Position numbers and translations under genes: made by a program
Notes under the pieces: generated by a model
What the model saw: only the letters and a program-made list of their open reading frames with translations
Databases searched by the model: none
Told to the model about the DNA's origin: nothing
From: Haloarcula pelagica
GTDB taxonomy: Archaea > Halobacteriota > Halobacteria > Halobacteriales > Haloarculaceae
Assembly (NCBI RefSeq): GCF_030127105.1
Contig: NZ_CP126161.1
Coordinates: 2,790,001 to 2,854,000, forward strand
DNA length: 64,000 nucleotides
Reading direction: 5' to 3'
In this document: piece by piece, positions 3,873-23,671 of the stretch
Position numbering within the stretch: position 1 is the first letter of the stretch
How the letters are laid out: every line of letters starts with the position of its first letter

Positions 3873-3874
3873 CG

Positions 3875-4150
3875 TCAGTGCGCACCTCCCTTGCTGGTGC
3901 CGGGTGCATACGGTGGGGTTTTGGCTGGTACGTGCAGACAACCAGTGAATTTCACATTCCTGGTCCGGTAGGTGGGGTTGTCGGCTGAACGGGAGGTAAA
4001 CGCGGTCATCGGGTCGATTTCCCGGAGTTCTTGTCGGTAGGCTTCGCAACCTGCGACCCTTTCACTGACCTCAAAATATATTAATCTTGATAATTCTTCA
4101 ACCAACTGTGCACCGTCAGCCTCTTGTTTTGACGACGTTGAGTTTTCCAT
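3875..4150 (-). CDS. small first protein of RAMP operon (91 aa)
   Basis: I recognise no family. The ATG at 4150 gives 91 residues that begin polar, include an amphipathic helical stretch (AQLVEELSRLIYFEVSERV), and end in a proline- and glycine-rich tail. An in-frame ATG at 4249 would add 33 residues, but that extension runs through a cluster of inverted repeats and looks regulatory. The stop is two bases from the Cas7-like start, so the gene is co-transcribed. It could be a small accessory subunit or an anti-/regulator protein. Confidence 0.5.
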   Translation of the reverse strand: MENSTSSKQEADGAQLVEELSRLIYFEVSERVAGCEAYRQELREIDPMTAFTSRSADNPTYRTRNVKFTGCLHVPAKTPPYAPGTSKGGAH

Positions 4151-5666: not shown

Positions 5667-5765
5667 GTGAGATTTTGTTAAGGAGAACATCCTTCGCCCG
5701 GTATTGGACTGTCTTTGGACGCTTTTTGAATAAACCGATTGTCGCTTACTCGCAGGATTGAAAGA

Positions 5766-7994
5766 ATGAGTCATAATCCTTTCCAAGACTGGTCGCAGGA
5801 TAACGCTCGGTTATTAAAAACGGATCTGACGCAGGAACGATATTCTCCAGTTTCAGTTGCTAAGGCATATGAAAATGCCGTTGAAACTATTCATAGTATA
5901 GATACTACATCAGACCAGTACGTAATTCCGCTGTTTGAGCCAGATGCTCCGAAACCCACTCAAGAGTATGTTTATTACAAGCCTGAGTCACAGAAGGTGA
6001 AAATCTACGATTCAGGGAATCACAGCATTGCTTGGCTTCCGCCAGGTGAAGTGTCGACTACGGAGCTTGGTCAGCGCCTCAAATGGTGGCTACCACCTGA
6101 TGAGCAAGATTTTGAAACACTCAGTGAGGAGCATGTGCCACCCGAATCAGTCAGTCCAGTTACCAATCTCAGCAAGTCTGAGTCGTCTGAGTTTTTTGAT
6201 GAGATGCTGGAACTGGTCCAACAGGAGCGGATTGCTGATAAGCAGGCTAATAGAGAACAGTATGAGGCTCTTGGGCTGAATAAAGCCATTCACCGAGGGG
6301 TGATGGCGGGCCCACTCATCCCACTTGGGACAGCACCATACGAAGGGGGTCGGGCCTTCAAATTTCAACTCACTTCTGAAGAGTCCGATGATGATACGGA
6401 TCCTAATCTCCGTGATGATGCTGAGATTTTCCCTGACAATGAGTATCTAGTGGGAGTCCGTGGGCATGAGAGTATCTCTCCTATTGAAATGGAAGCCGTC
6501 TATGTTGGGGATACAGACCTTTGGCTTCGGCCGCTGAACAAGTCAATCGCTAAGAATTCACCAAAGAGTAACGTACTAACGGATGACGAAGCAACGGTTT
6601 GGGTACATGATTTAGTTAATCCACTCCCGTACAATCGACGCCGCGACGCGATCCACAACGTGAAACGTAGCCGCAACAAACGACAACTTCTCACTGGCAA
6701 TCAGAATGCAGTGTTCTCGTCGGGACAGCATGCAATTCCAGATTCAGGTCTTGAACTTAATATTTCGCAGCAGAAGGCGCTTGTGTGGGCAGAGGCTGCT
6801 GAGGATTGCTTCTGCATCCATGGCCCGCCCGGTACCGGGAAAACGCGGACGCTTACTGCCTATATCCGTGATGCTGTCGCCCGTGAACAGCGCGTCCTTG
6901 TCACTGCACACTCAAATCAGGCTGTTGATAATTTGCTTGTTGGTGATAGTACTGTTGATGAGCCAGAAGAAGGGACGCTGCACGCTATAGCACAAGACGA
7001 CGAAACAGACATCACCATTTCTCGTTCCGGAACGAATTCTGAGGACCGAGTTGTTAACCGATACTATCAGGGCGTGCCATCAGCTAATGCAGATATTGTT
7101 GCGGCGACAACAAGTGGGGCTGCGCGCTTCTCGACTGACAGTTTTGATGTGGGAATCGTTGATGAAGCAACGCAAGCTAGCTGCGCCTCGACTGCTATCG
7201 CTTTTAACGTCTCTGAAAAGCTTGTTTTGGCGGGAGATCATAAACAACTGCCTCCATTTGCAGCCTCTGAGGACGCTCTTGGAGATGAGCAACGTCTTTC
7301 ATTATTTGAAGTATTGATAGATCGGTTCCACGAGGATCTATCAGTCATGCTCCGGACGCAGTACCGGATGAACGAATCGATCGCAGCCTATCCGAACAAC
7401 GCGTTCTACGATGGAAAAGTGAAGACTGCTGACCGGAACAGTGACTGGACTGTCGCTGACCTTTCCCCGCTTATGGGTATCCATATCAATGGGTCTGAAC
7501 AAAAAAGAACAGGGAGCCATTCGTACTACAACTCCGAAGAGGCTGAAGCCGCTGCAAAGCAAGTAAAGTTACTCACGAATAGTGGCCTTGCTCCTGGAGA
7601 TATCGGTGTTATAGCAGCATATAGCGGGCAGGTGGACGAAATAAAACAACAGGTGCGTCAACTCGGTATCGGTCACCCGGAAAAAGTAACCATCCAAACT
7701 ATTGACGGTTTCCAGGGAAGTGAACGGGAGGCCATCATTGTCTCACTAGTGAGAAGTAATGACGAGAATTCAAGCGGGTTTTTGACGATGCCAAATGAAG
7801 GACCGCGCCGGCTTAATGTTGCACTCACCCGTGGGCGCAAACGAGTTGTCATCATCGGAGACTGGAACACACTCGGGAAACTTGCTGATTACCGCGAGCC
7901 GGAAGAAAGTTGTGCTGACTTGTATGCCCAATTAGAGGAACGGATTCGAACCAGCGGAAAAATGCTCGATATAGCTGCCAAACCGTCTCAATAG
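5766..7994 (+). CDS. UPF1/Dna2-like superfamily 1 helicase (742 aa)
   Basis: All SF1B motor motifs are visible. Walker A is GPPGTGKT at about residues 353-360, Walker B is VDEATQA near 464-470, and motif III is GDHKQLPP near 490. Motif IV (LRTQYRMNESI), motif V (IDGFQGSEREAIIVSLVR) and motif VI (RRLNVALTRGRKR) follow. The N-terminal 340 residues are not recognised; they contain a middle beta-rich part and may contact nucleic acid. The family translocates 5'-3' on DNA or RNA. No nuclease domain is seen. The ATG at 5766 is preferred over an in-frame start at 5739. The stop lies five bases before the target duplication of a transposon that landed just behind the gene without breaking it. Confidence 0.85.
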   Translation: MSHNPFQDWSQDNARLLKTDLTQERYSPVSVAKAYENAVETIHSIDTTSDQYVIPLFEPDAPKPTQEYVYYKPESQKVKIYDSGNHSIAWLPPGEVSTTELGQRLKWWLPPDEQDFETLSEEHVPPESVSPVTNLSKSESSEFFDEMLELVQQERIADKQANREQYEALGLNKAIHRGVMAGPLIPLGTAPYEGGRAFKFQLTSEESDDDTDPNLRDDAEIFPDNEYLVGVRGHESISPIEMEAVYVGDTDLWLRPLNKSIAKNSPKSNVLTDDEATVWVHDLVNPLPYNRRRDAIHNVKRSRNKRQLLTGNQNAVFSSGQHAIPDSGLELNISQQKALVWAEAAEDCFCIHGPPGTGKTRTLTAYIRDAVAREQRVLVTAHSNQAVDNLLVGDSTVDEPEEGTLHAIAQDDETDITISRSGTNSEDRVVNRYYQGVPSANADIVAATTSGAARFSTDSFDVGIVDEATQASCASTAIAFNVSEKLVLAGDHKQLPPFAASEDALGDEQRLSLFEVLIDRFHEDLSVMLRTQYRMNESIAAYPNNAFYDGKVKTADRNSDWTVADLSPLMGIHINGSEQKRTGSHSYYNSEEAEAAAKQVKLLTNSGLAPGDIGVIAAYSGQVDEIKQQVRQLGIGHPEKVTIQTIDGFQGSEREAIIVSLVRSNDENSSGFLTMPNEGPRRLNVALTRGRKRVVIIGDWNTLGKLADYREPEESCADLYAQLEERIRTSGKMLDIAAKPSQ

Positions 7995-9245: not shown

Positions 9246-10412
9246 TCACATTGATTCGATTGTCTCGACAACAGTGTCACGCCCAATAGTATTGGTAATC
9301 GTCTCTGAATTTGTGGCAGTATCGAGGACCCGACTGCAGATACTCAGTACCTGACGAATATTCCCCTGTGAACGCTGAAGAACAACGTTGAGACCCTGTT
9401 CTGTGAATGGTTCAATTCCTGCTTCCCCGTTGGTTCTAGCCGTATCGAGATAGTCCTCAACGAGGTTGTATACCTTCTCTTCAGTGAGCGGTCGAAGTGC
9501 GACCTCCTGTCCAATTCTCTCTGAGAATGCATGATATTCACTCATCACATCTTGCCAGACTTCTGGTGCGCAGCCAAAGAGGATACACAAGCCACGGCTA
9601 TTCTGGTCCATCAAATGCCTGATACTGTTCAGCGTTGCCTGCTCATCTTTCGGCGTCAGTTGGGCAATTCGCTCGAATTCATCAATGAAGGTAAATATCC
9701 CAGTATAGTCGAGTTCGAGCAGCATGTTCTTCAGCGCCGTAAACGCCCGAACCGCACTGGTATCATCGTCGATTGCACTATGGATCTCCATCTCTTTTCG
9801 TTGTTCGTACCTGAGGCCCTCAGCGGTCAACCATTGCCAAGCATAGAGGTTCGTATCTTCGTAGACGAGGTGGACTATTGCTCGGGCAAAATCGGCGAAC
9901 TTAGTCACATCGCTCAGTCGCTGTATCGTTTCTGGGACGATATCCGATAACAATACTTCACCATCATCGATGAGTCGTTCCATCGAACTGGCGCTGGTTG
10001 GATTTGCGTCCGTCTGTTCTCGTGCTACTGAAGCGAGGAACTCGTAGCTCAATGCCTGCATCCGGTCGAATCCAATGTCGTAAACGAATTCGTGATAGAT
10101 ATCGAGGAAACCATCCCCCGGTTGCGCAACATATCCTACGAGAACATCGTCGCGGTCTCTGACGAGTGATCTCGTGTATTTGAGTGTGTGTGACTTGCCG
10201 TTGCCGTACTTACCGGTGACGACAAGATGTTTCGATTTGCCAGTGCCGAGAACTGACGAAACGGTGTTACTGATGCGTTCGGTTACTTGCTCCTGCCCGC
10301 AGTAGACTGCTGGCTCATCATCTGGTACAGGACTATACGGGAAGGGGTTCTCCGTGAGTCCGAACTCCGAGTAATCGCGCTGTTCGTCCGTGATGGTGAA
10401 ATTATCGCTCAT
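9246..10412 (-). CDS. AAA+ ATPase co-transcribed with dpdA-like gene (388 aa)
   Basis: The N-terminus carries an ORC/Cdc6-style entry (FGLTENPFPYSPVPDDEPAVYCG), then Walker A GKYGNGKS at 67-74, Walker B FIDEFERI at about 242-249, and a sensor-1-like strand LCILFGCAPEV near 275-285. The C-terminal part after 330 looks like a lid plus helical domain. Such ATPases load or remodel protein on DNA. Its start overlaps the winged-helix gene by four bases (ATGA), and that gene overlaps dpdA the same way. The three proteins are therefore made together. A role beside DpdA, for instance in place of the ParB-like DpdB that I do not see here, is inference. BREX BrxD-like ATPases are an alternative family. 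Confidence 0.7.
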   Translation of the reverse strand: MSDNFTITDEQRDYSEFGLTENPFPYSPVPDDEPAVYCGQEQVTERISNTVSSVLGTGKSKHLVVTGKYGNGKSHTLKYTRSLVRDRDDVLVGYVAQPGDGFLDIYHEFVYDIGFDRMQALSYEFLASVAREQTDANPTSASSMERLIDDGEVLLSDIVPETIQRLSDVTKFADFARAIVHLVYEDTNLYAWQWLTAEGLRYEQRKEMEIHSAIDDDTSAVRAFTALKNMLLELDYTGIFTFIDEFERIAQLTPKDEQATLNSIRHLMDQNSRGLCILFGCAPEVWQDVMSEYHAFSERIGQEVALRPLTEEKVYNLVEDYLDTARTNGEAGIEPFTEQGLNVVLQRSQGNIRQVLSICSRVLDTATNSETITNTIGRDTVVETIESM

Positions 10413-11302
10413 GGTTGAGTGTAGTTCAGATTCCGGTCGTGGACCGTGAGGTAATAGTATCGTTTGCCGTACTGTTCGATTCCTCGCATCACCCTGTCGG
10501 TCGACTGTGAAGTCGAAACCAAACTGTCGTCAGCGGCTAACTCGATCTCTTTAATCCCGTAGCTTGCATCCTTGGCTCCGGTATCCATCGGCGCACCAGA
10601 CAACTCGAGTTTCCCCACGTTCTCCGCCGCTAAGTGTGAGAGCGCCGCATCGAACGACTCACGCGTCAGTTCAAGAGATGCACAAAGTGATTCTCGCACC
10701 TCCGGGATAGAGAGGTACCGCTGCCTGAGACCGACACCAGCAGTTTCCTCGAGGTCGTCATATATCTCCAGCAGGGCATAGTGGAAGTTTGCTGGCGGTT
10801 CCTCACTTCGTGGTTGATAGTACTCGCCGGTAAACGCGTTCCGCTGAACTGTCCCGAGTCGTTCGCCCCAGTCACCGACTACTTCGATTCCAGTCTGATT
10901 GTATGCATACGGCGTGAATTCCGCTTGCTCTTCTAATTGATCAAGGACAGTATCTAACTGCGCAGGACCTTCGTCTGTGACGACCTCCAGAAAGCTACGG
11001 TAGTGTGGACTTCTGGTCGCAAGGATGGAACTGACTTGCGACCAATCCTCTGCGCGCACACTACTTACGAACGATTCTCCAACTGGTGTCGTTCTGTATT
11101 GCTGGTTGTCTTCTTCGTGTTTGCTATCTTCTTCGATGAGATCGATGCGTAGTGCCTCAAGTAGCGTTTCACGGGCTCTTCGATGACTAACGTCGAGTTC
11201 CTCTTCGATATCTTCGGTCGACATCGGTTCCTGACAGAGGAATGCCGTCTCGACCAACCGTGCCATCGTAACTGGCCGAACTGTCGGACGTTCGTCGCTC
11301 AT
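10409..11302 (-). CDS. winged-helix protein of dpdA operon (297 aa)
   Basis: Residues about 10-60 form a winged helix (ARLVETAFLCQEPMSTEDIEEE region). The rest is mixed helix and strand with no motif I know. The last 60 residues are beta-rich and end RYYYLTVHDRNLNY. It overlaps dpdA upstream and the AAA+ ATPase downstream by ATGA, the arrangement expected of subunits of one complex. It could be a DNA-sequence reader for the modification machinery rather than a free transcription factor. Confidence 0.5.
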   Translation of the reverse strand: MSDERPTVRPVTMARLVETAFLCQEPMSTEDIEEELDVSHRRARETLLEALRIDLIEEDSKHEEDNQQYRTTPVGESFVSSVRAEDWSQVSSILATRSPHYRSFLEVVTDEGPAQLDTVLDQLEEQAEFTPYAYNQTGIEVVGDWGERLGTVQRNAFTGEYYQPRSEEPPANFHYALLEIYDDLEETAGVGLRQRYLSIPEVRESLCASLELTRESFDAALSHLAAENVGKLELSGAPMDTGAKDASYGIKEIELAADDSLVSTSQSTDRVMRGIEQYGKRYYYLTVHDRNLNYTQP

Positions 11303-12333
11303 GTGAGCCTCCGGACCTGCTGCTTTGCCATTCGGAACGCTCGTTTCGTGACTTCGTTACCCTGGAAACGAAGATCGAGGTACGATTCTAGGTCCTCACC
11401 GGCAGCGACCATGTACCTGAATCTTCGCAACTCAAGAGCAAGCGCCCAGAGGTTGTGTTGAACAAGGAGGTCACGATCGCCTCGGACTTCCTCGAAATCA
11501 CGGGTACTGCAAACAGGACAAGCACAAGGAAGCAGTGAGAGATTCTCGACGTTTTTCATCGGTTCTCCCCCGAACCCAGGAATGAGGTAGTTCCTGTTCC
11601 CCGCACTACGGATGAAGGCTGACGAATCGAAACTATCAACTCCCATATACAGAAGTAGTGGTTGGTACGTAACCCCACCTAATCCATAGACATGGAGGTG
11701 CTTCTCTGTGGCACGACGTGCCGATAGTATAATTTTTGTTACCTTTTCGTAGTCAGTTCTGATTGGGACCAAACTCCCCACTGCATATCCATCGAAGGAA
11801 CCCTCGCGTTCCAGATATCGAATTGTATTTCGGACAGTCTCCGGGTCATACCCGTGGACACTCCCCAATAAGATCTCCTCGCCGTCGTGTCGATCACTCG
11901 CTTCAAGTGCAAGATCGATACTCCGACTGATTCGGCGCTGATTTTTCGCTTGTCGGTTATCCCGGGAGAGGGGAACGTCAACGGTCCCAAATATATCAGC
12001 ATCCATCCGGCGCTGTGTCTCCAGGGTCTTTTCTGGGGTGGTGTCGACCTCGCTCGTCTGAAAATCGAACCCCCCGCTATCCGCGAAGACGATTGTATCC
12101 GAGGTGACCCCCATCTCGTCACGAAGTGAACTCCCTTCGACGAGGCGGTTCCACTGTGGGTCCCTGTTTCGGATTGCACGCGCGTTGACCATCGCTGTCG
12201 ACAGATCTGGTATACTGTCAGTGTATTCTGGCGTGTTATCGCTCGACCGTTTCCCGATATTGCTTACCGGAAAGAGCACTGGAGTCCGTAACTCCCCGTG
12301 TGGTGTATCGAGTGTACGTTGTCTGTACAACAT
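11299..12333 (-). CDS. dpdA: DpdA-like 7-deazaguanine transglycosylase (344 aa)
   Basis: This is a TIM-barrel transglycosylase of the TGT superfamily. The ELRTPVLFPVSNIG opening at about 14-27 matches the TGT pattern. The active-site loop FADSGGFDF places the first Asp at 85. GLGG is at 217-220. GVDSFDSS at 231-238 holds the expected nucleophile Asp. The zinc site is C270, C272, C275 and probably H293. Canonical TGTs exchange guanine in tRNA; the DpdA branch inserts preQ0 into DNA. The DNA role is inferred from neighbours: a complete preQ0 operon and restriction-type helicases. The ATG at 12333 is chosen over one at 12405 because a TATA box at 12363-12371 places transcription start within a few bases of it. 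Confidence 0.75.
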   Translation of the reverse strand: MLYRQRTLDTPHGELRTPVLFPVSNIGKRSSDNTPEYTDSIPDLSTAMVNARAIRNRDPQWNRLVEGSSLRDEMGVTSDTIVFADSGGFDFQTSEVDTTPEKTLETQRRMDADIFGTVDVPLSRDNRQAKNQRRISRSIDLALEASDRHDGEEILLGSVHGYDPETVRNTIRYLEREGSFDGYAVGSLVPIRTDYEKVTKIILSARRATEKHLHVYGLGGVTYQPLLLYMGVDSFDSSAFIRSAGNRNYLIPGFGGEPMKNVENLSLLPCACPVCSTRDFEEVRGDRDLLVQHNLWALALELRRFRYMVAAGEDLESYLDLRFQGNEVTKRAFRMAKQQVRRLT

Positions 12334-12362
12334 ATGCGACGCGCTGTGGTAAGCTGGGCTGG

Positions 12363-12371
12363 GGTATAAAG
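12363..12371 (-). promoter_or_regulatory. TATA box of dpdA operon
   Basis: The minus strand reads CTTTATACC. It lies about 30-38 bases from the ATG at 12333, giving an almost leaderless transcript. It abuts the 18-base palindrome. Confidence 0.55.
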
Positions 12372-12388
12372 CTTTGCTCGAGCAAAGC
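12371..12388. promoter_or_regulatory. perfect 18-bp palindrome operator
   Basis: GCTTTGCTCGAGCAAAGC is a perfect palindrome. It covers the position just upstream of the dpdA TATA box, where TFB would contact the BRE, and lies between dpdA and the divergent winged-helix gene at 12441. A dimeric winged-helix repressor bound here would block the dpdA promoter. The divergent gene is the obvious candidate (inference). Confidence 0.6.
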
Positions 12389-12440
12389 AATCTTCGGTAA
12401 ACCATAGCGACTTTAGATTCTGTCAGTAAATGCTTGGTAG

Positions 12441-12728: not shown

Positions 12729-15644
12729 TCAGAACTTTTCGATAGCGGCTTGGCTTGGTTCTTCTTCGATATATCGACAGAGGAGGCTCACAGTTTCTGG
12801 GTCCACCTCACTGGTATCGGGCAAGTTCTTGGCGAAGTTCTCTAAATAGAGCCCTTTGAGACCGATCACGATCGTCTCGTGGCGCTTGGCATCTTCTGTT
12901 CGCGCAGGGACGGAGACGATATTCTCGTACTGTTGATCAACCAGATCTCGGTTGAAAACGACACCAATGCGATCCGAGCGTACCGTTTGGACGGTCTCGT
13001 CGATGTCGATACTGGTGTAGTAATCTTTGCCCAGTGTAAAGAAGACGATATCGTAGTCAGTTTGATTTAGTACTCTCCACAGATCCTTCTTGATTCCCAG
13101 TCGCTCCGACCGTTCTCTGATTTGACTGACGTTCATACCGCTGAACGTGACTTCATACGGTGGCAACTCTTCCTCTTCACCCACCAAGCCGAACCCAGCA
13201 CTGATAAAGAACCGCTCCACGTTGTGGCCGTCGTCCCTGAGCCTCCTCACAGCATTGCTGATCGACTCCTGCTGGCGGCCAGTGTACAGGTCCTTGGCTT
13301 TGATACCGAGGGAATCATCGTGATTGAGTAGTTCTTCCTTCGACGACCCATCTATCTCGTCAACGTCAAAGATGCGTTCTCCGTCTGGAACGTACTTCGA
13401 ACCCGAGCATTGATCGATAACTAAGATGTCGAGATCCGAACCAGTATCGAAGGCCGGTTTATGTGGTGCAAAGTCTTCACCTGCTGAATACTCTTCGCCA
13501 AGGTCAGAGAGGACTGTTTCCCGAAGGCGATCCGGTTGCTCAAAGACGGATACTTTACAGTCAGATCCATCGGCAGCCCGGTTTAGTATCGATTCCGTGT
13601 TCTGATCGATACCATAGACGTAGACCTGATCGTACCGACTGAGCGCTTCAGTGAACCGATTCTCTGTGCCTGTTGGGGCAAACGAAACCGTTCGTGGAGT
13701 CTCGTCCCACCACTCATGAACGCCGTTCGCATCGAATGCCCCGACTTCCGCGACAGGGAGGTCGTGTGTCTGTTCCCAGAACCCGCTCCGTTCCTCTCTG
13801 AGGTAGTCTTCGACAGTGCGATAATTGCTGAAGGAAGCCGATCCTTTCGTGAGGATCAGGATTTTTGGTAGGGACTCCGAGAACTCCTCGTAGAAGCGAT
13901 CCGTATTGTGGAACCCACGTCGGCGGTTGCGGTCGTTTCCACGGAAAATGCATACCTCGACACCGAGGTCAATACAGATCGGACAATCACAATGTTCCCA
14001 CGGGCGGTCTGCAAGCGTCTGCTGGTATGCCTCGAGCAAATCCTCGTTTCCGATCCAGATAGCGTAATCCTGAACGACGAACCAGAGACGCTGGAATGCA
14101 CTCATTCCTGATGTCTTTGCTTCTTCACGTTCAAGGATGGACGCCATCCGAGGGAAACGCTCGAACGATTCCGAAGCCGTCTGCAGTATATTCTGATACT
14201 TCTCGAACGGAAGCGGATCGGTTTCGCTGTCAGAGCGCAGGAATTTGACGATCTGGGTCCGGAGGTCGTCACTGAAGTATGCTTGTAGCTTCCGAGCGTA
14301 TTCGAAATCATCACGCAATACGGATTCGATGTCCCGGAGTCGTGAAGCATTGAATTTCTCGTCATGACGGTGATTCCGGAGGTACCGCTTTGTCTCTGTG
14401 AGCGTCTTGCTGGCCTTCTCTTCCCACTCTCGGAGAGCCTCCGCAATCGATTCGTTGTCTGCGTAAGCTCGGAGCGCGATGAGGGTTTCTTGACCTCGAA
14501 GAGCAGTTTCGACAGCATCCGCTATCTCGGCACCGTGCTTGGGATACTGGACACGAATAGCATCATATCGATCGTCGCTGTCTAGCCGGTAGTTCTGTCC
14601 ACCAGTCCACGCAGACCGTAGCATGCTTGCGCTGTCGAAACTGGACATACCGGACCGTCCAATCGTCTCGAACGCATCTGACTTGGCGAATCCGAAGACG
14701 TGTGTGTCGACCCGGGTCCGATTGGTCCGCTCGTAGTCTTTAACCGATTTACCGACTTCCTTGACGATCTTTCTAACGTCGTGAACCGGACTCCCTGCTA
14801 CGCCACCAATTCCTATGTAATCGTAGCCGATATCGAGTACCTCTTCGACCGCCCGGACATACGATTCGGCTGTCCATCCCTGGACCGCAACCATCAACCG
14901 GAACGGATAGTCTCCCCTCTGATACTGCTTCCACATTTCGCGGGCGTTCTGGAGCGTCAGCTCGTATCTGAATCGCTTGTCGTCCTCTCGATAAACCGCT
15001 CTCGGATCGTCATCAAGACGATTCAGCACCTTGTCGACATCACCCTCAAAATCAGACTGGGTGAGCGGCCGGACACCATCGCTGCGATCGATGCAGATCG
15101 ACGAGTCGTGCTTTTCGACATACTCGGGCCATTCTTCGGGCCACTCGTCGATCATCAGATCGACTGCATCTGTGATCTTCGAAGGGATATCTGATTTATT
15201 AAAATCGCCGCCAAGCGCCCGTTCATCAAGGTAGAGTCGCCCCCTCTCCTTTCCTGAGCCCAAGACAAGGTGGTCGATCGTCACTCCGACCGAGACGTCC
15301 AGCGTCTCGTAGAACTCCAACATATCCTCGTTGCCATACGGAGGGAACGGGTACGATTTGTACCCCCATGCGCCACAGTCGCTGATCGTAGGAAGCCACC
15401 CAGGAACGGAAAGGATCGGGTCGTCGTAGACCCCATGCTTCGAGAGTCGCTCTGCCTTGTTGGCTGTCGATTCGACCTGCTCGCGTGAGATCAAGACCCC
15501 ATCAATCGGCGTCGACTCTTTGGCGAAGATATCCCAGATATAGTCCAGATTCCGCTCTTGGCGGTGGAGGTTCGATAACTCGTCGTGTTCGAAATCATAG
15601 CCCGCATCCACAGCGTCGTCCCACTCGGGAACATAGAACCTCAC
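12729..15644 (-). CDS. second DpdA-like transglycosylase fused to YaaA/DUF6884-like domain (971 aa)
   Basis: Residues 1-600 follow the TGT barrel: SDCGAWGY at 88-95 in place of SDSGGFQ, YIGIGGVAGSP at 276-286, GMSSFDSAS at 332-340 with the nucleophile Asp, and a zinc site HCDCPIC at 551-557 with a later His at 579. A helical insert fills about 360-540. From about 737 a separate domain begins: VIDQCSGSK (743-750), AKDLYTG (783-789), FISAGFGLV (813-821), PPYEVTF (828-834). This is the pattern of YaaA/DUF6884 proteins. As I recall, DpdC, which converts preQ0 in DNA to its amide, belongs to DUF328 (YaaA). The chain may therefore join insertion and conversion steps. The start is GTG at 15644 with a TATA near 15684-15690. 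It converges on the winged-helix gene. Confidence 0.7.
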   Translation of the reverse strand: MRFYVPEWDDAVDAGYDFEHDELSNLHRQERNLDYIWDIFAKESTPIDGVLISREQVESTANKAERLSKHGVYDDPILSVPGWLPTISDCGAWGYKSYPFPPYGNEDMLEFYETLDVSVGVTIDHLVLGSGKERGRLYLDERALGGDFNKSDIPSKITDAVDLMIDEWPEEWPEYVEKHDSSICIDRSDGVRPLTQSDFEGDVDKVLNRLDDDPRAVYREDDKRFRYELTLQNAREMWKQYQRGDYPFRLMVAVQGWTAESYVRAVEEVLDIGYDYIGIGGVAGSPVHDVRKIVKEVGKSVKDYERTNRTRVDTHVFGFAKSDAFETIGRSGMSSFDSASMLRSAWTGGQNYRLDSDDRYDAIRVQYPKHGAEIADAVETALRGQETLIALRAYADNESIAEALREWEEKASKTLTETKRYLRNHRHDEKFNASRLRDIESVLRDDFEYARKLQAYFSDDLRTQIVKFLRSDSETDPLPFEKYQNILQTASESFERFPRMASILEREEAKTSGMSAFQRLWFVVQDYAIWIGNEDLLEAYQQTLADRPWEHCDCPICIDLGVEVCIFRGNDRNRRRGFHNTDRFYEEFSESLPKILILTKGSASFSNYRTVEDYLREERSGFWEQTHDLPVAEVGAFDANGVHEWWDETPRTVSFAPTGTENRFTEALSRYDQVYVYGIDQNTESILNRAADGSDCKVSVFEQPDRLRETVLSDLGEEYSAGEDFAPHKPAFDTGSDLDILVIDQCSGSKYVPDGERIFDVDEIDGSSKEELLNHDDSLGIKAKDLYTGRQQESISNAVRRLRDDGHNVERFFISAGFGLVGEEEELPPYEVTFSGMNVSQIRERSERLGIKKDLWRVLNQTDYDIVFFTLGKDYYTSIDIDETVQTVRSDRIGVVFNRDLVDQQYENIVSVPARTEDAKRHETIVIGLKGLYLENFAKNLPDTSEVDPETVSLLCRYIEEEPSQAAIEKF

Positions 15645-15879: not shown

Positions 15880-17136
15880 TTAGAATTTACTCAGATTAGT
15901 CATGTCAACATTATGCCCGTCTGTATCAAGCGATGCTGTTTCGACCGAACTAACAACTTCACCATAGAAGTAATCGCTAATTTCGGTAATCTGAACATAT
16001 GCAATACCTGTGTCTGACACACCCTTTTCAAGAACGACAGGTGCCTCGATATCATCACGGACCAGATTTGCCGTATCCCGTCGTTTTGAGACCTTAGCTT
16101 CGTATCTTTCACCAATCTCTATCGAGGGTGATTCATATCTTTTTACTCTTCCTGTAAAGTTGCCACCTGAGGCAGTTACGATAGAAACAGTTGCTTGTCC
16201 CGAAAGAATCGCTTCGTTTTCGAGTTCAATGAGACACCTTTGATTACCTGCCTCGAGCGTTGCCTCCGACTGCTTCCGACTGGTTTCTAAAGTGACTTTG
16301 TCCCCGACACTAGGTGCAGAAACTTCATCATCAGCAATCTGGCCACGGATATTCATTGGCGCTAGATTTGAGAGGGAAACTTCTGCAGGGCCAGTTGCCG
16401 GTGCGGGTTCGTTGAGTTCGATGGACACACCGAATTCTGAGACCCTAACTTCGGTGCTACCCTGTTTCAGATGCCCGATAACAGTGTCTCCCTCAGATGG
16501 TATCTGTTGTGTATCACACAATTCTCCTTGTAATGGTGAATCAAGTTTAGTGATTTCGACAGGAACTTCTACAGATACAGGAACCCAGCGGTCCAGCTTT
16601 ATTTTGCAACCAGAGCCGGTCCTTGCTGATCTAGAATCAGCGATTGTCTGACCATTTATTTCTGTCCCTGTAGTGATACCTTCTTCTCTAATTGCGATGG
16701 GGAGTGCGTAGGCCGTTTCATCACGGGTCTTCATGATTTTAACAGTACCACTGAATTTCGGGCCAACCCGGTACACATAAACTGCTTCAAGATTGCTAGA
16801 GTTCGCTGCTGGTGCTCGTGCCACTCCATTTCCGACCATCCCATCGGTTTGTATGTCAATTTCATCCTGGGGTTGGTCATGACGCTTGTATGCGGCCCGC
16901 TCTTGACGGAGTTCGGCATGGCCATCACTGACATTAATTACTGTCGCGTAGATTCCCATACCTGGAGTCATAGAACTGGAACCCGCTGCTTCAGTTACCT
17001 CAAGAGTGTTGATAGCGGCCCATGGGGGGGCTTGTGCCTTGACTTCATGAATATCCACAGACAGTATTTTTGTGCGGATAAAGTCGCCAGCTTTTATGGG
17101 TAAATTAATTTCACCGGGTTCGATAGGAGAGACCAT
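15880..17136 (-). CDS. multi-TRAM/OB-like repeat protein (418 aa)
   Basis: The whole protein is beta-rich and made of repeating units of roughly 55-65 residues with the rhythm of TRAM/OB domains, such as a GDFIRTKI opening, APSVGDKVTLETSRKQSEAT, and repeated acidic connectors. TRAM and OB domains bind RNA or single-stranded DNA. They occur in RNA base-modifying enzymes, where they hold the substrate. I see no catalytic motif. It diverges from queD and follows the fused transglycosylase on the same strand. It may be a nucleic-acid-binding cofactor for the modification step. The domain call is by pattern only. Confidence 0.45.
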   Translation of the reverse strand: MVSPIEPGEINLPIKAGDFIRTKILSVDIHEVKAQAPPWAAINTLEVTEAAGSSSMTPGMGIYATVINVSDGHAELRQERAAYKRHDQPQDEIDIQTDGMVGNGVARAPAANSSNLEAVYVYRVGPKFSGTVKIMKTRDETAYALPIAIREEGITTGTEINGQTIADSRSARTGSGCKIKLDRWVPVSVEVPVEITKLDSPLQGELCDTQQIPSEGDTVIGHLKQGSTEVRVSEFGVSIELNEPAPATGPAEVSLSNLAPMNIRGQIADDEVSAPSVGDKVTLETSRKQSEATLEAGNQRCLIELENEAILSGQATVSIVTASGGNFTGRVKRYESPSIEIGERYEAKVSKRRDTANLVRDDIEAPVVLEKGVSDTGIAYVQITEISDYFYGEVVSSVETASLDTDGHNVDMTNLSKF

Positions 17137-17299: not shown

Positions 17300-17330
17300 C
17301 TCCGGGGCATGTCTATAAATGCTCCCGGAG
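17300..17330 (+). promoter_or_regulatory. inverted repeat enclosing the queD TATA box
   Basis: CTCCGGG (17300-17306) and CCCGGAG (17324-17330) are perfect arms, extended inward by GCAT and ATGC with one unpaired base. The element CTATAAAT at 17313-17320 lies exactly in the middle, 23-30 bases before the queD ATG. A protein bound here would occlude TBP. The site differs from the dpdA palindrome. Confidence 0.5.
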
Positions 17331-17342
17331 TATTCTCCCAGT

Positions 17343-17804
17343 ATGGTTGAGGGAATATCGAAGGATCAGTCTGACCGGACACGGCTCTCTGAAGCAGGGG
17401 AGAGAGAATTGCTAATTGGTGAGGACCAACCAATTCGGATTAGCTCTGGCCATCGCATACAGCACCACGATGGGAAGTGTAGTCGCCCACATGGACACAA
17501 TTACGAGATTTCTGTCAGTGTTACCGGCGAGCTAACCAAAGAAGGGTGGGTCGTCGACAAAGGTGAGATCACTTCGATAATTTCTGAGTGGGACCATCGC
17601 TTCATACTCGAGCGTGGCGATCCACTCATTGAAGCTTTCGAACAAAGCGGTGATAGTGGCGCTCTCGTCGTTATCGATCATCCACCGACGGCAGAGGTAA
17701 TGGCGGTGCTGCTGGAAGAACGCATGATGGAGGAATTTCCAGACACCGTTTCAGATGTCTCCGTCTCAGTTAGAGAAACAGGCGAGCTGTGTGCAGCACC
17801 GTAG
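17343..17804 (+). CDS. queD: 6-carboxy-tetrahydropterin synthase QueD (153 aa)
   Basis: This enzyme converts dihydroneopterin triphosphate to 6-carboxytetrahydropterin, the second step from GTP to preQ0. The zinc histidines are H37, H50 and H52 within the SGHRIQHHDG and RPHGHNYE segments. The catalytic Cys is C46. The Asp-His pair is D84-H85, and the C-terminal RETGE supplies E145. Length fits the family. The TATA box makes the ATG at 17343 essentially leaderless. It is the first gene of a four-gene operon with intergenic gaps of six, two and one bases. Confidence 0.92.
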   Translation: MVEGISKDQSDRTRLSEAGERELLIGEDQPIRISSGHRIQHHDGKCSRPHGHNYEISVSVTGELTKEGWVVDKGEITSIISEWDHRFILERGDPLIEAFEQSGDSGALVVIDHPPTAEVMAVLLEERMMEEFPDTVSDVSVSVRETGELCAAP

Positions 17805-17810
17805 CTATCG

Positions 17811-18578
17811 ATGCCTGTGAATGCTGACGCGGAAATTGAGGATGCAGAAGCCGAGGGCGACCTCCCGATCAACGAACTCTTCTATTCGTTACAGGGGGAG
17901 GGGAAGCTTTCGGGTGTTCCATCGGTCTTCGTCCGAACCAGCGGCTGTAATCTTCGCTGCTGGTTCTGTGATTCGTATCACACGTCCTGGGAACCCACAC
18001 ACGCATGGATGGACATAGAGGAAATGATCTCAGAGGTCGAGTCTCACCAGGAATGCGAACACGTCGTCCTCACCGGCGGCGAACCAATGATTCACTCTGC
18101 GGTGACAGACCTACTGGATAAACTCTCAGCAAGGGGGTACCACACGACAGTCGAAACGAACGGTACCATCCATCGTGATGCTCCGGTTGATTTGGCTAGC
18201 ATTAGCCCAAAACTTCAGTCGAGTACGCCCACAGCAGAGAAAGATCCGAAGGGTGAGGGAGAATGGGCGGACAAACACGATGAGCGTCGACTGGACCTCG
18301 AGTCACTGTCCGCACTCGTAGAGGACTACGCGTTCCAACTGAAATTTGTCGTCACCAGCACCGACGATATGGTGGAGATCGAATCTCTCCTTGAACGGTT
18401 GCGGAATGTCACCTCTGAGTCCATCGCCGGTGATGATATCCTACTCATGCCCGAAGGGGCGACGCGGGACCGGTTGGAAGAGACGCGCGAACTCACAGCC
18501 GAATTGGCGATGGAATACGGGTACAGATACACGCCGAGGCTGCACGTGGATCTGTGGAACGACGCACCAGGAACCTGA
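17811..18578 (+). CDS. queE: 7-carboxy-7-deazaguanine synthase QueE (255 aa)
   Basis: This is the radical-SAM enzyme that rearranges 6-carboxytetrahydropterin to 7-carboxy-7-deazaguanine. The iron-sulfur cluster motif CxxxCxxC is C46, C50, C53 in SGCNLRCWFCDS. TGGEP at 88-92 binds SAM. The N-terminal NELFYSLQGEG is typical of QueE. It begins six bases after queD and ends two bases before folE. Confidence 0.92.
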   Translation: MPVNADAEIEDAEAEGDLPINELFYSLQGEGKLSGVPSVFVRTSGCNLRCWFCDSYHTSWEPTHAWMDIEEMISEVESHQECEHVVLTGGEPMIHSAVTDLLDKLSARGYHTTVETNGTIHRDAPVDLASISPKLQSSTPTAEKDPKGEGEWADKHDERRLDLESLSALVEDYAFQLKFVVTSTDDMVEIESLLERLRNVTSESIAGDDILLMPEGATRDRLEETRELTAELAMEYGYRYTPRLHVDLWNDAPGT

Positions 18579-18580
18579 AC

Positions 18581-19189
18581 ATGACCGACGATATTCAAAC
18601 TGACACGGTAGAGAGCGTCGACGATATCGACGGCGAGACGCACGCAATCGACTGGTCGAAAGCTCAAGAGGGCGTTCGATTGTTGCTGGAGGCCGTCGGC
18701 GAAGAACCGGATTCAGCGAAACTCCAGGAGACCTGGCAGCGCCGGGTTCCAAGTGCCTTCGAGACGCTGACTCAGGGAACACGGATCGAGGCGAAACCTG
18801 AGATGCGAACGTTCGAGGCGTCTGGTGAGAGTTTCGTGGTTAAAGAAGATATCCCAGTCTACAGCCTCTGCGAGCACCATTTGCTACCGTTTTTCGGTAC
18901 TGCAACGGTCGCATATCGTCCAGACAGTGAGGTCGTAGGGTTATCGAAACTCGCGCGTTACGTGCGGTGGCAGTCACGCCAACTCACGATGCAGGAACAA
19001 CTCACACAGGATATCGCTCATGGACTCGCCGACGAGATTGGAGCCTCTGCGGTGATGGTCGAGATATCGGCGACACATCTCTGTGAAGCGATGCGCGGTG
19101 TCGAGACGAAGACCGAGACATCGAGTAGAGCGGTTGTCGGCGAACCGACTGAGCACGAACGACGGCGATTCAACGAGGCAACCAGATAA
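18581..19189 (+). CDS. folE: GTP cyclohydrolase I (FolE type IA, 202 aa)
   Basis: This enzyme opens GTP to dihydroneopterin triphosphate, the entry step to preQ0. Zinc ligands C97 and H100 in SLCEHHLLPFFG and C168 in HLCEAMRG are all present. The GLSKLARYVRWQSRQLTMQEQL block is classic type IA. Many archaea use the unrelated type IB enzyme, so a type IA gene inside a defence island suggests acquisition from bacteria along with the pathway. The ATG at 18581 is two bases after the queE stop, and an acidic N-terminal tail of about 25 residues precedes the fold. Confidence 0.92.
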   Translation: MTDDIQTDTVESVDDIDGETHAIDWSKAQEGVRLLLEAVGEEPDSAKLQETWQRRVPSAFETLTQGTRIEAKPEMRTFEASGESFVVKEDIPVYSLCEHHLLPFFGTATVAYRPDSEVVGLSKLARYVRWQSRQLTMQEQLTQDIAHGLADEIGASAVMVEISATHLCEAMRGVETKTETSSRAVVGEPTEHERRRFNEATR

Positions 19190-19190
19190 T

Positions 19191-19886
19191 ATGTCATCAA
19201 ACTCCCGAGCGGTCGTACTCGCATCAGGTGGAATGGACAGTGCAACCGCAGCGGCGGTCGCAAAAGAATCCGGTCACGAGCTTTATATGCTGCATACGTC
19301 GTACGGGCAGCGGACGGAGTCGAAAGAACTGGAGTGTGCAGAGGCCCAGGCCGATTACTACGACGCTGCAGACTTTCTTCATCTAACCACTGACCATCTC
19401 TCGAAGATCGGTAATTCGAGTCTGACGGACGACGAGGTCGCCGTTGAAGATGCTGATCTCGACAGCGACGAAGTCCCAAGCTCGTATGTTCCATTCAGGA
19501 ACGCCAATTTGCTCTCGATGGCGGTATCATACGCCGAAGCTAACGAATGTGATGCAGTGTATATCGGTGCCCATTCTGAAGACTTCTCGGGCTATCCCGA
19601 CTGCCGTCCCGCATTCTTCGACGCGTTCCAGCAGGTCGTTGAGGTTGGCACGAAAGACGATACCGAGATAACTATCAGCGCTCCATTCACTGAATGGTCG
19701 AAGACCGATATCGCCAAACGAGGTGTAGAACTGGACGTCCCCTATCAATTGACGTGGAGTTGCTACCGTGACGACGAACCCGCATGTGGAACCTGTGATG
19801 CCTGCGCATTCCGCCTCCAAGCATTCCAGAATATCAACGAGAGGGATCCAATCGAGTATGCCGAGCGGCCAGACTATCGAACATAA
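19191..19886 (+). CDS. queC: 7-cyano-7-deazaguanine (preQ0) synthase QueC (231 aa)
   Basis: This enzyme converts 7-carboxy-7-deazaguanine to the nitrile preQ0 using ATP and ammonia. The PP-loop SGGMDS is at 12-17. The zinc cysteines are C191, C199, C202 and C205. The segment YVPFRNANLLSMA is typical of QueC. The ATG at 19191 follows the folE stop by one base. It closes the GTP-to-preQ0 operon. A host haloarchaeon needs preQ0 for tRNA archaeosine too, so this set is probably an extra copy dedicated to DNA modification. Confidence 0.92.
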   Translation: MSSNSRAVVLASGGMDSATAAAVAKESGHELYMLHTSYGQRTESKELECAEAQADYYDAADFLHLTTDHLSKIGNSSLTDDEVAVEDADLDSDEVPSSYVPFRNANLLSMAVSYAEANECDAVYIGAHSEDFSGYPDCRPAFFDAFQQVVEVGTKDDTEITISAPFTEWSKTDIAKRGVELDVPYQLTWSCYRDDEPACGTCDACAFRLQAFQNINERDPIEYAERPDYRT

Positions 19887-20461: not shown

Positions 20462-23400
20462 TTACTCTTCCAACGTATACTCCGGTCGTGCTGAACAGCT
20501 GAACCTGACATCGCACTCGGCACACGTTCCCTCCGAGGGGAGTTCCTTCTCTGTGATATCAAACCAACCACCCTCCTCGCGGTCTTGCTTGATATCGTCG
20601 ACAGTCCGCTCGAACTCCTTGATCGATCCCTCGACGTCATCACCGGAGAAGTCGACCTCGAACATCGCTTCATCACGGTCGCCCTCACCGAGGAAGTAGA
20701 TCACACCCCGATCAGGGTACTCCCCGTTCTGATATCGGTAGAGTTCTGCGTAGGTGTACAGTTGGGCCTGATAATCCGTTAGTTCCGCACCACCATCCGG
20801 ACGTTGTCCGGCCTTGTAATCCCAGATCTCGTCACCATCGTCGTCACCCATGAGAACGTCCACGACTCCTTCGAGTACGAAGTCATCGCGGTTGCTCTGA
20901 AGACGGTGTTCGGTGTCGACAACGCGTGGATAGAGCCAGTCGCCTTCTGTCTCGTTGAACCGCTTGATGTACTCGAACGCGGTCTCTTCAGCCTCCTCGC
21001 TCATCGGATAGATGTTCCTAGCCTTCAGCGCTTCCGCTACCTCATCGAAGTAGTCTCGCAGTTCAGTTGCGGATGGTGGTTCGTCTCCCTCAATGTCTCC
21101 CAAATCGCCCGAGTAATGCCGGTGTGCTCTATCGAGCGTCTCGTGGACAACGCGACCAAAGAACAGTTGGGTCACGTGGTTCGGCGTGAACCCGAGCTCT
21201 TTGTAATAGCCATACTGGCGCTTGCAGCGACGGTACGATAGTACGTCACCCGTGATGCTATACCGGCGTTTGAGATCGATATCGTCGAGAGGACCTACGC
21301 TGTCCTCGACGCTCTCTAGGAAGTCGTCCGGATCCTCCACCGATCGCTCGCCCGAGAACCAGTCTTCGTCGAGTTGGTTGCCGTTGGCTTCGTACCCGAG
21401 GGAGAGGCCACTGGTCCCTCCTTCGGTCCCCAGAAGGAACAGGTCCTCCTCGGCGCGCGAATAGGAGACGTAGAATCGTCGTACTTCGTCTCGTTCTGCT
21501 CGATCGTCGACGTCTCCAACCGGTTCGATGTCTGCGTAAGGTTCCAGTTGGTCCTCAAGCCAGTAAGTCCCACTCGTCCAAGGCTCCGAATCGAGGTTCC
21601 CTGTGAAGACCACGGGAAATTCGAGGCCCTTGGCCTGGTGGGTGGTCATGACCTGAACGAACCCTGCAGGTAGTTGATCGTGGGGATCTTCCGGTTCGTC
21701 GAAATCCTGTGCTTGGAGGTAGCCACAGAACGTCCAGTAGAACGATCCGAGGAAGCTCGTCGACACACTGTTCGAATTCGACGATTTCTCGAGATAACCA
21801 GCGCCAGCCACACTGAGAAACGCATCGAAGAGGTTAGTGAGACGACCGAGGCGTTCCCCACGGTCCGGTCGGTCGCTTCCTTCGATCCACTCCCGGAATG
21901 GATCGAACGACAGGATACGGTAGAGCAGTTCGAGTATCGTGAATCCAAGCGACTCTCCGTCATCAGCGAGTGCGATCTCGCGTTGTTTTCTTCTAACGAA
22001 GTCGTCCAACTGCCAGGCGTTGTATTCTTCGACGTATCCGTCGAACGCGGTCGCCCATTCCTCGACCTGGTCCTCGACCCCACCTTGCAGGTTGACCCAG
22101 GGGACAGATGCGCCATCGAATTCTGGGTCGATGACGCGAATAACTGCTCCGAGCGCGAACCGTATCTCGTCCTGCTCGAGGAACGCTTTGTTCCGTGGAT
22201 TGTGGACTGGGATATCCCGGTCCCGCAGTGCCTGTACGTACTGACCCGCCCAATCATCACTCTCCTTTGTGCTCTTAAACAGGAATGCGACCTGGCTGTA
22301 GTCCTCGATGTATCCGTCTTCGTGGAGACGCTCGACCAACTCCGCCGCACGTTCAGCTGCGGTTCCAGTGTCCTCAGACAGTAACGCCCGGACGCTAGTC
22401 CGACCGTCAGTATCTGTCCGGTCGACCAGCATCGGTTCCTTCCCGGGTGCCCGAGCACCAGGACGCTGCATCAGCGGATAGTCATCGATGTATCGATTGC
22501 ACCAAGAGACGACGTCGTCCGTCGATCGGTAGTTCGCCCGAAGTTGGACTTCCTTGACAGGTGCACTAAACCGCTGGCGTGCACGTTCGGGAAACTGGAT
22601 GAGGCACTCGACAGTCCCACCGCGAAACCGATAGAGTGCCTGGTCGTCGTCACCGACGACGGTGATGTTCGGCGAGTCGAGTTTCTCCGTGAGTCTGAAA
22701 TATAGTTCCTGCTGAAGGGGGTTGGTATCCTGATATTCGTCGACGAGTACGTGCTCGAGTTGGGGCCGTTCACGTTCTGGTTCTCCATCGATGAACCGCT
22801 GCCCCGCTTCGCTGTCGAGGAACTCTATGAACTGTTCGAGAAGTCTGGCGAAGTCTGAGCGACTGTTATCGCGGAGTGTCTGGCGATATCGTTCGAGTCC
22901 TTCAGCACAGACACGCCATGCCGACTCGTCCGCAGTTCGCAACTCCGTCGTATCAGCTCGATACTGAGAAATTCGGTTGAACAGCTTGGAGGCCAACTCT
23001 GTCGCCTCCCACTTGTTGGGCGAGAAGTTCTGTTTCCACCCACGCAACTCCCCGAAGAACTGCCACACATCGTCGATATCGCTGTCAGAGATTGTCTCCC
23101 AGTTATCGGCTGACCCGGACCCACGGAGGACCGAAACGAAATCACAGTTGTCGTACATAAAGAGTTGCTGTGCGTCCTCGTCGAGGAGTTCCACACTGGC
23201 GTAATCCTCGTACCGGTACTCCTGCATGATGTCTTTCGCTAGTGAGTGGAGGGTTCCGGTTCGAATCTCATTCGCGTCGACTACATCCTGGAATCCCAGT
23301 CTGGAGAGGCGGTCGACGATGCGCTCCTCGAGATTCTGGGCCGCCTTCTCTGTGAATGTCGTCAGCAGTATACCCTGTGGCGGGACTTCGTCTACAAGCA

Positions 23401-23599
23401 GCAGCTTGAGTGCTCGGCAAATCAAGACTTCCGTCTTCCCACTTCCAGGGCCAGCCGTGACGTGTAATGGTCCGTCACCGTGTCTGATTGCTCGCTCCTG
23501 GGCGCTGTTGAACGACCACTCCGGATCATCGAACCGGCTGCGGTTGGCTCGCTCTAACCGGTCGATAAATTCGTCGGCCGTGAGTGGTAATTCGGTCAT
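20462..23599 (-). CDS. UvrD-type helicase fused to PD-(D/E)XK FeS nuclease (1045 aa)
   Basis: Helicase motifs are Walker A AGPGSGKT at about 49-56, VDEYQDTNPLQQ at 286-297, GDDDQALYRFRGG near 316, and THQAKGLEFPVVF in the second half. The C-terminal 230 residues form an AddB/Cas4-like nuclease: an RRCKRQYGYY cysteine, GVVDVLMGDDDG then DEIWDYKAGQ as D-(D/E)xK, a Q-containing QLYTYAELY helix, and C1026, C1029, C1035 completing a four-cysteine iron-sulfur cluster. Such proteins unwind and resect DNA ends. The ATG at 23599 is preferred over starts at 23632 and 23614. It may be a defence nuclease or a RecBCD-like repair enzyme carried by the island. Confidence 0.82.
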   Translation of the reverse strand: MTELPLTADEFIDRLERANRSRFDDPEWSFNSAQERAIRHGDGPLHVTAGPGSGKTEVLICRALKLLLVDEVPPQGILLTTFTEKAAQNLEERIVDRLSRLGFQDVVDANEIRTGTLHSLAKDIMQEYRYEDYASVELLDEDAQQLFMYDNCDFVSVLRGSGSADNWETISDSDIDDVWQFFGELRGWKQNFSPNKWEATELASKLFNRISQYRADTTELRTADESAWRVCAEGLERYRQTLRDNSRSDFARLLEQFIEFLDSEAGQRFIDGEPERERPQLEHVLVDEYQDTNPLQQELYFRLTEKLDSPNITVVGDDDQALYRFRGGTVECLIQFPERARQRFSAPVKEVQLRANYRSTDDVVSWCNRYIDDYPLMQRPGARAPGKEPMLVDRTDTDGRTSVRALLSEDTGTAAERAAELVERLHEDGYIEDYSQVAFLFKSTKESDDWAGQYVQALRDRDIPVHNPRNKAFLEQDEIRFALGAVIRVIDPEFDGASVPWVNLQGGVEDQVEEWATAFDGYVEEYNAWQLDDFVRRKQREIALADDGESLGFTILELLYRILSFDPFREWIEGSDRPDRGERLGRLTNLFDAFLSVAGAGYLEKSSNSNSVSTSFLGSFYWTFCGYLQAQDFDEPEDPHDQLPAGFVQVMTTHQAKGLEFPVVFTGNLDSEPWTSGTYWLEDQLEPYADIEPVGDVDDRAERDEVRRFYVSYSRAEEDLFLLGTEGGTSGLSLGYEANGNQLDEDWFSGERSVEDPDDFLESVEDSVGPLDDIDLKRRYSITGDVLSYRRCKRQYGYYKELGFTPNHVTQLFFGRVVHETLDRAHRHYSGDLGDIEGDEPPSATELRDYFDEVAEALKARNIYPMSEEAEETAFEYIKRFNETEGDWLYPRVVDTEHRLQSNRDDFVLEGVVDVLMGDDDGDEIWDYKAGQRPDGGAELTDYQAQLYTYAELYRYQNGEYPDRGVIYFLGEGDRDEAMFEVDFSGDDVEGSIKEFERTVDDIKQDREEGGWFDITEKELPSEGTCAECDVRFSCSARPEYTLEE

Positions 23600-23671
23600 G
23601 CCAATTAAATACATTTTACTGTCACTTAACACTGGTTGCAGCGTGGCTTTGACTGGAATTGAAGACCACTT

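Follow-up and report, generated by a model that had tools for sequence, protein, structure and literature searches.

Known 7-deazaguanine systems and the locus studied

In the Dpd system, a modified base is inserted into DNA by DpdA with DpdB and finished by DpdC, which are separate proteins. The ATPase activity of DpdB serves insertion and is dispensable in some clusters; DpdC hydrolyses dPreQ0, that is, 7-cyano-7-deazaguanine (preQ0) residing in DNA, to 7-amido-7-deazaguanine (dADG) (PMC12839542). In Salmonella Montevideo, dpdC is required for dADG, and DpdC has been mapped to DUF6884 (PMC11888242). The family to which DpdC is assigned differs between the two sources, being DUF328 in PMC12839542 and DUF6884 in PMC11888242. 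According to a 2025 preprint (Bell et al., PMC12458937), the BRIGADE systems are confined to halophilic archaea and combine two YprA-like helicases with a predicted cluster for 7-deazaguanine and a nuclease of the PLD or PD-(D/E)XK type; in Type I, one helicase is ARMADA-like and the other comes from the Dpd branch. The subject of this work is a gene in a 64,000-nucleotide stretch of the Haloarcula pelagica genome (contig NZ_CP126161.1, positions 2,790,001 to 2,854,000), referred to as the window, to which all coordinates refer. Its product is a fusion of a DpdA-family DNA-guanine transglycosylase with a C-terminal domain related to DpdC.

The preferred reading, held with a probability of about 70%, is that the fusion protein inserts preQ0 into DNA and then converts it to dADG, as part of a self-marking system of the BRIGADE/Dpd type. 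Given the published chemistry of DpdC, this bifunctional reading is well founded but unproven for this protein.

The fusion gene and its DpdA part

The gene and the regions of its product, which includes a barrel of the tRNA-guanine transglycosylase (TGT) type, are as follows.

12729-15644, minus strand: dpdA-dpdC fusion gene, 971 aa, GTG start
13875-15644, minus strand: DpdA domain, residues 1-590, TGT barrel with haloarchaeal inserts
13500-13862, minus strand: middle alpha/beta region, residues 595-715, which stays with DpdA in split genes
12732-13433, minus strand: DpdC-like (YaaA/DUF6884-like) domain, residues 738-971

A sequence-only reading of the window had proposed that DpdA and DpdC are joined in this single 971-aa chain, and the matches to DpdA and DpdC profiles and the YaaA-like C-terminal fold bear this out. 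The motifs on which it relied lie at residues 744-750 (DQCSGSK), 783-789 (AKDLYTG), 813-821 (FISAGFGLV) and 828-834 (PPYEVTF). A frame error as the cause of the fusion was ruled out, the same continuous frame being present in about 29 haloarchaeal genomes.

The protein scores 272.2 bits with the NCBIfam DpdA equivalog NF041059 (cut-off 200), and the PADLOC DpdA model matches its N-terminal part (1.3e-72). By sequence, the sole match in the PDB is 7ui4, the DNA-guanine transglycosylase of the Dpd system (E 2e-40). The same structure ranks first in a Foldseek search with an AlphaFold2 model of the full-length protein (mean pLDDT 86, 47 rows), with an E-value of 1.8e-19 and a TM-score of 0.75 normalised to 7ui4; tRNA-guanine transglycosylases come next. 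Ten DpdAs were aligned, drawn from Bacillota, cyanobacteria, proteobacteria and Haloarchaea; the candidate catalytic aspartates D89 and D337 are invariant among them, as are the zinc ligands C552, C554, C557 and H579, which form the CxCxxC...H zinc site of TGTs. The catalytic role of the two aspartates is presumed from established TGT biochemistry. Additional segments occur in haloarchaeal DpdAs, as does a stretch of about 120 residues past the zinc site (residues 595-715). This region is alpha/beta according to the predicted secondary structure and, among the DpdAs compared here, occurs in the haloarchaeal ones only.

The C-terminal DpdC-like domain

Five PADLOC models of DpdC match the C-terminal part of the protein, the best of them (1.7e-8) at residues 741-863. 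The match of Pfam DUF6884 (PF21818) to residues 781-880 has an E-value of 1.1e-6 and scores 29.3 bits, which is 0.7 bits below the gathering score of 30.0. Two hidden Markov models (HMMs) were also built, both from bacterial sequences and, so that circularity was avoided, with no haloarchaeal member. The first combines seven DpdCs encoded by separate genes with DpdB in the same locus; the second combines 19 N-terminal domains of bacterial DpdC-DpdA proteins of the kind described below. Among all stop-to-stop frames of the window, the fusion protein is the sole match of both, with E-values of 1.3e-10 for the first (best reversed frame 4.6) and 6e-33 for the second (best reversed frame 31). Ten core residues that are invariant or nearly so in DpdCs are kept, namely C746, K750, Y787, G789, S815, A816, G817, G819, Y830 and Y875; they follow the conserved pattern CxxxK, Y, G, SAG with a further G, Y and Y.

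Modelled alone, the domain has a mean pLDDT of 94. The sequence-only reading had seen the YaaA/DUF6884 pattern in this domain, and the YaaA-fold similarity that it requires was found: VIA-align ranks Escherichia coli YaaA (PDB 5caj) first, with Z 9.8 and a root-mean-square deviation of 4.8 over 184 residues, the next row having Z 8.7. The Foldseek rows for this domain (FtsZ and others) were set aside as weak and unrelated, with a best E-value of 4e-3; VIA-align ranked YaaA first. In a profile-sequence alignment (E 1e-4 for a single comparison, probability 56%), the motifs YTGxQ, SxxxG, PY and xxYxxS line up with those of E. coli YaaA, in which the cysteine of the CxxxK site is missing. The domain thus has its fold in common with YaaA and its candidate catalytic Cys-Lys pair in common with DpdC. 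The sequence-only reading had placed DpdC in DUF328 (YaaA): the YaaA-like fold holds for the domain and the Pfam family does not, as DUF6884 is matched and the YaaA/DUF328 family PF03883 has no match to the fusion protein at E up to 1. The activity that it gave for DpdC, formation of 7-amido-7-deazaguanine from preQ0 in DNA, agrees with what has been published (PMC12839542, PMC11888242).

The domain might instead be a non-catalytic module for DNA binding or base flipping, of the YaaA/YfjM kind, in which case the DNA mark would stay dPreQ0. YaaA binds DNA, the DUF6884 protein YfjM has been reported to bind damaged DNA and modelled as flipping a base (PMC11701544), and some validated dpd islands do not make dADG (PMC11888242). 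However, Cys746 and Lys750 are invariant in DpdCs, whether fused, split or bacterial, the cysteine is missing from E. coli YaaA, and, among relatives with a known activity, DpdCs are the nearest, which makes a purely structural role unlikely.

Fused and split genes in Haloarchaea

The haloarchaeal sample comprised 392 genomes of the host's order, 53 of which encode a DpdA of the fusion's kind. According to the matches and a check of open reading frames, the fused continuous frame is present in about 29 of the 392. In about 22 genomes, a DpdA gene (716-739 aa) is followed directly by a DpdC gene (about 235 aa), some of these pairs overlapping by 4 bases; at two loci (L066 and L067), a single in-frame stop divides DpdA from DpdC. 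Each of the two trees, one built for the DpdA part and one for the DpdC part, needs at least two changes between the fused and split states. They contain a supported clade of 16 fused rows, including the window protein, and one fused member (L068) among split ones.

A divergent haloarchaeal DpdA (L070:7329-9020) bears a short DUF6884-like C-terminal domain, a third arrangement besides the fusions in either order; it adjoins TGT2, wHTH, AAA, folE, queD, queE and queC genes. A lone DpdC-like protein (L069:8169-8891) is matched by PADLOC DpdC with 3.9e-15, and similar lone proteins occur in about 17 sampled genomes.

Fusions in the reverse order in bacteria

Bacterial DpdAs in plasmid records were found to carry about 280-310 extra N-terminal residues, recognised as DpdC by PADLOC. 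A scan of 84,980 species genomes gave 368 relatives; the best 80 of the 368 and the plasmid loci together include 55 cases in which DpdC forms the N-terminal end of the DpdA chain, a count biased by the first query, which was itself a DpdC-DpdA fusion. The phyla represented are Bacillota, Cyanobacteriota, Deinococcota, Planctomycetota, Verrucomicrobiota, Bacteroidota, Pseudomonadota, Myxococcota and others. A DpdB-like gene lies within about 7 kb at none of the 55 DpdC-DpdA loci, compared with 8 of 21 loci with separate genes (Fisher p 1e-5, indicative only since the sequences are related). That the two domains have been joined repeatedly, and in either order, strongly indicates that their activities belong together.

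One locus on a Paenibacillus plasmid (L082:4152-11173) contains queE/D/C, a VUT-family transporter, a DpdC-DpdA gene, a second TGT gene, genes for hypothetical proteins and a P-loop NTPase gene; it is a bacterial counterpart of the haloarchaeal module. On two cyanobacterial conjugative plasmids (L075:5866-7284 and L080:4866-6284), a 472-aa protein combines a TGT-like part with DUF6884 (PDC-M57A). A search of viral contigs with the fusion protein alone returned no relatives; two viral contigs (L165 and L166) encode a protein matching a DpdC-DpdA fusion over its full length.

These bacterial forms bear on the possibility that the chemistry of the domain differs from that of DpdC, for instance that its substrate is free preQ0, hydrated ahead of insertion, or that its product is another derivative such as deoxyarchaeosine. 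The nearest bacterial relatives of the domain are the N-terminal domains of DpdC-DpdA proteins (E 6e-33) and not the DpdB-linked DpdCs (E 1.3e-10), and the product of the bacterial fusions was not found in the open-access literature. All the core invariant residues of separate DpdCs are nevertheless kept, and no island gene scanned reaches the cut-off of the ArcS model (440), the second TGT-like protein of the locus, TGT2, scoring 52.9 bits. A departure from DpdC chemistry is therefore considered improbable, somewhat more so than a non-catalytic domain.

Genes neighbouring the fusion

The genes of the module next to the fusion are listed below.

11299-12405, minus strand: TGT2, second TGT-like protein, 368 aa, with candidate catalytic Asp residues and a CxCxxC...H zinc site
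10409-11302, minus strand: winged-helix-like protein, 297 aa, weak HVO_A0261_N match, 4-base overlap with TGT2
9246-10412, minus strand: AAA ATPase, BrxC/BrxD-like, 388 aa, Pfam BrxC_BrxD 1.7e-14, overlapping the winged-helix-like gene by 4 bases
17319-19886, plus strand: queD, queE, folE and queC (preQ0 synthesis), divergent from the fusion gene

TGT2, the winged-helix-like protein and the ATPase accompany DpdA-DpdC in nearly all haloarchaeal loci examined. The queD-queE-folE-queC set, whole or in part and in the same order, stands beside the fusion or the split pair in many relatives; the preQ0 genes are so annotated in Halobaculum, and at the window site there is a QueC family match. Two more full-length queC copies are present elsewhere in the genome. 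An OB-like gene at 15880-17136 was dropped as a part of the module, as none of the other loci showed a homologue nearby.

No DndB/DpdB family protein was found in the genome, nor any match to a DpdB profile in the window. The only DpdB-like gene seen near a haloarchaeal member (L044:11772-13226, E 8e-20) lies between a split DpdA-DpdC pair and TGT2.

TGT2 matches Pfam TGT with 1.3e-27 and scores 141.6 bits with the arcTGT model, the cut-off of which is 350. Elsewhere in the genome, two further TGT-family genes are adjacent to each other and, by length and score, are read as arcTGT and ArcS; TGT2 and the housekeeping archaeosine TGT are different proteins. Archaeosine is a tRNA modification of Haloarchaea, and the fusion protein could in principle act on tRNA as an extra enzyme of the archaeosine pathway, given its membership of the TGT superfamily and the resemblance of TGT2 to arcTGT. 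This is very improbable: the genome has the housekeeping arcTGT-like gene and its adjoining TGT-family gene, and the fusion protein is a DpdA equivalog, encoded in a restriction-like island and co-occurring with DpdH.

The island and its restriction-like genes

The locus is part of a low-GC island at about 4-51 kb of the window (4001-51000), where GC content is mostly 46-56%, compared with 68-72% to the right and about 63-65% to the left. The island is packed with defence-like genes, including the following.

32071-34788, minus strand: DpdJ-like helicase, PADLOC DpdJ 8e-52
30014-32074: MZB/DUF1998-like part of the DpdJ-like helicase, a separate gene with a Pfam MZB match
41423-44779, plus strand: DpdH-like ATPase, 1118 aa, NCBIfam DpdH 3.6e-19, below its cut-off
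45548-51034, plus strand: giant DEAD-box helicase, Druantia/DrmA/DpdJ (YprA)-like, 1828 aa
26766-30017, minus strand: PD-(D/E)XK (Dna2/Cas4-like) nuclease protein, candidate effector, Pfam PDDEXK_1 6.8e-14 and Dna2 1.4e-6

A DpdA gene is present in 36 of the 37 sampled genomes with the DpdH-like ATPase (p 1e-36, uncorrected for kinship). In 29 of the 34 cases with both on one contig, the DpdH-like ATPase lies at most 25 kb from DpdA, and the median distance is 18 kb; for the DpdJ-like helicase, the distance to dpdA is at most 36 kb in each of the 12 genomes that have both on one contig. This linkage is the pattern of a restriction half tied to a modification half. The giant helicase is matched by the PADLOC models DruE (5e-43), DpdJ (2.8e-34) and DrmA (2.5e-26). 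Homologues of the nuclease at 26766-30017 were found near dpdA at three other loci (L031, L034 and L036), and Pfam indicates a second PD-(D/E)XK domain at 20462-23632.

At the left end of the island, the region 5739-7994 encodes an SF1 helicase (PADLOC Mokosh, MkoA, 7e-81). Beyond it, genes on the minus strand at 439-4049 appear by eye to be RAMP/Cas7-like and 3'-5' exonuclease-like.

Proposed mechanism

The DpdA domain would exchange guanine in DNA for preQ0 supplied by the divergent queD-queE-folE-queC genes. The DpdC domain would then hydrate the nitrile of the inserted base, giving dADG, probably by means of Cys746 and Lys750, the invariant pair in the CxxxK motif. Cys746 is likely to be the nucleophile, by analogy with those nitrile-processing enzymes in which a cysteine thioimidate arises. 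TGT2, the winged-helix-like protein and the BrxC/D-like ATPase probably replace DpdB, which is the ATPase that partners DpdA in bacteria; the conserved neighbourhood and the absence of DpdB suggest such a role for TGT2 and the ATPase in particular. The dADG would mark the host DNA as self, and the DpdH- and DpdJ-like proteins, the giant YprA-like helicase and the nucleases would attack unmarked DNA.

Several points weigh against this proposal. The C-terminal extension of bacterial DpdC and its W127-W128 are absent, the domain of the fusion being about 70 residues shorter; the N-fused bacterial forms in the alignment likewise lack both. Neither the extension nor W127-W128 is known to be needed for DpdC activity, and the domain is classed as DpdC-like rather than as a full-length DpdC. 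The lead of YaaA over the next VIA-align row is 1.1 Z units, and YaaA is absent from the 50 best Foldseek rows for the domain. A stand-alone haloarchaeal DpdC-like protein (at L069) has no TGT nearby, and, given such lone copies, the DpdC-like domain may do other work too. In the open-access papers searched, no experiment on a haloarchaeal member came to light, nor any measurement of 7-deazaguanine bases in the DNA of such a host.

The occurrence of the fusion in both orders in distant lineages implies a functional coupling between insertion and finishing, and from their fusion dADG, rather than dPreQ0, is predicted as the mark. A broader proposal is offered tentatively, as somewhat short of an even chance: DpdB-free fused DpdA-DpdC proteins, in either order, would constitute a second architecture for 7-deazaguanine marking, in which the DpdB step in Haloarchaea would be performed by a complex of two TGTs with the winged-helix protein and the BrxC/D-like ATPase, and archaeal chromosomal DNA would be self-marked with dADG. 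The fusion offers a compact, salt-adapted enzyme open to assay, points to a DpdB-free insertion machine and leads to the prediction of 7-deazaguanine bases in the DNA of an archaeal host.

Comparison with known systems

With the Dpd system of Salmonella Montevideo, the locus has in common the DpdA transglycosylase, the DpdC domain, the preQ0 genes and the DpdH/DpdJ-like genes. It differs in having one DpdA-DpdC chain and no DpdB, in place of which there are a second TGT, a winged-helix-like protein and a BrxC/D-like ATPase. BREX-related capture (BRC, PMC12839542) likewise has a TGT alongside BREX-like ATPases; unlike the present locus, it has HerA/FtsK and PglZ, and no DpdB or DpdC according to its authors.

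E. coli YaaA (DUF328, PDB 5caj) is comparable to the C-terminal domain in fold (Z 9.8) and in the motifs YTGxQ, PY and xxYxxS; it differs in lacking the CxxxK cysteine, in being unfused and in being a DNA-binding protein of peroxide stress. Further counterparts are the bacterial DpdC-DpdA proteins, such as WP_149847115.1 of Paenibacillus sp. 37 and WP_331711066.1 of Nostoc NIES-3756, which are annotated only as DpdA. They share with the haloarchaeal fusion the single chain, the absence of DpdB within about 7 kb and, in some cases, a second TGT nearby, but have the DpdC domain at the N-terminus.

No description of a DpdA-DpdC fusion was found in the open-access literature, subscription papers lying outside that search, and the main text of the BRIGADE preprint, in the part accessible, makes no mention of such a fusion, of TGT, YaaA or DUF6884 (PMC12458937). 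The island shares with BRIGADE a haloarchaeal 7-deazaguanine cluster, two YprA-type helicases and a PD-(D/E)XK nuclease (PMC12458937), and, with its helicases placed by profile matches, it appears to fit Type I. Both domains and the type of island are already known; the fused architecture, in two orders, is apparently undescribed.

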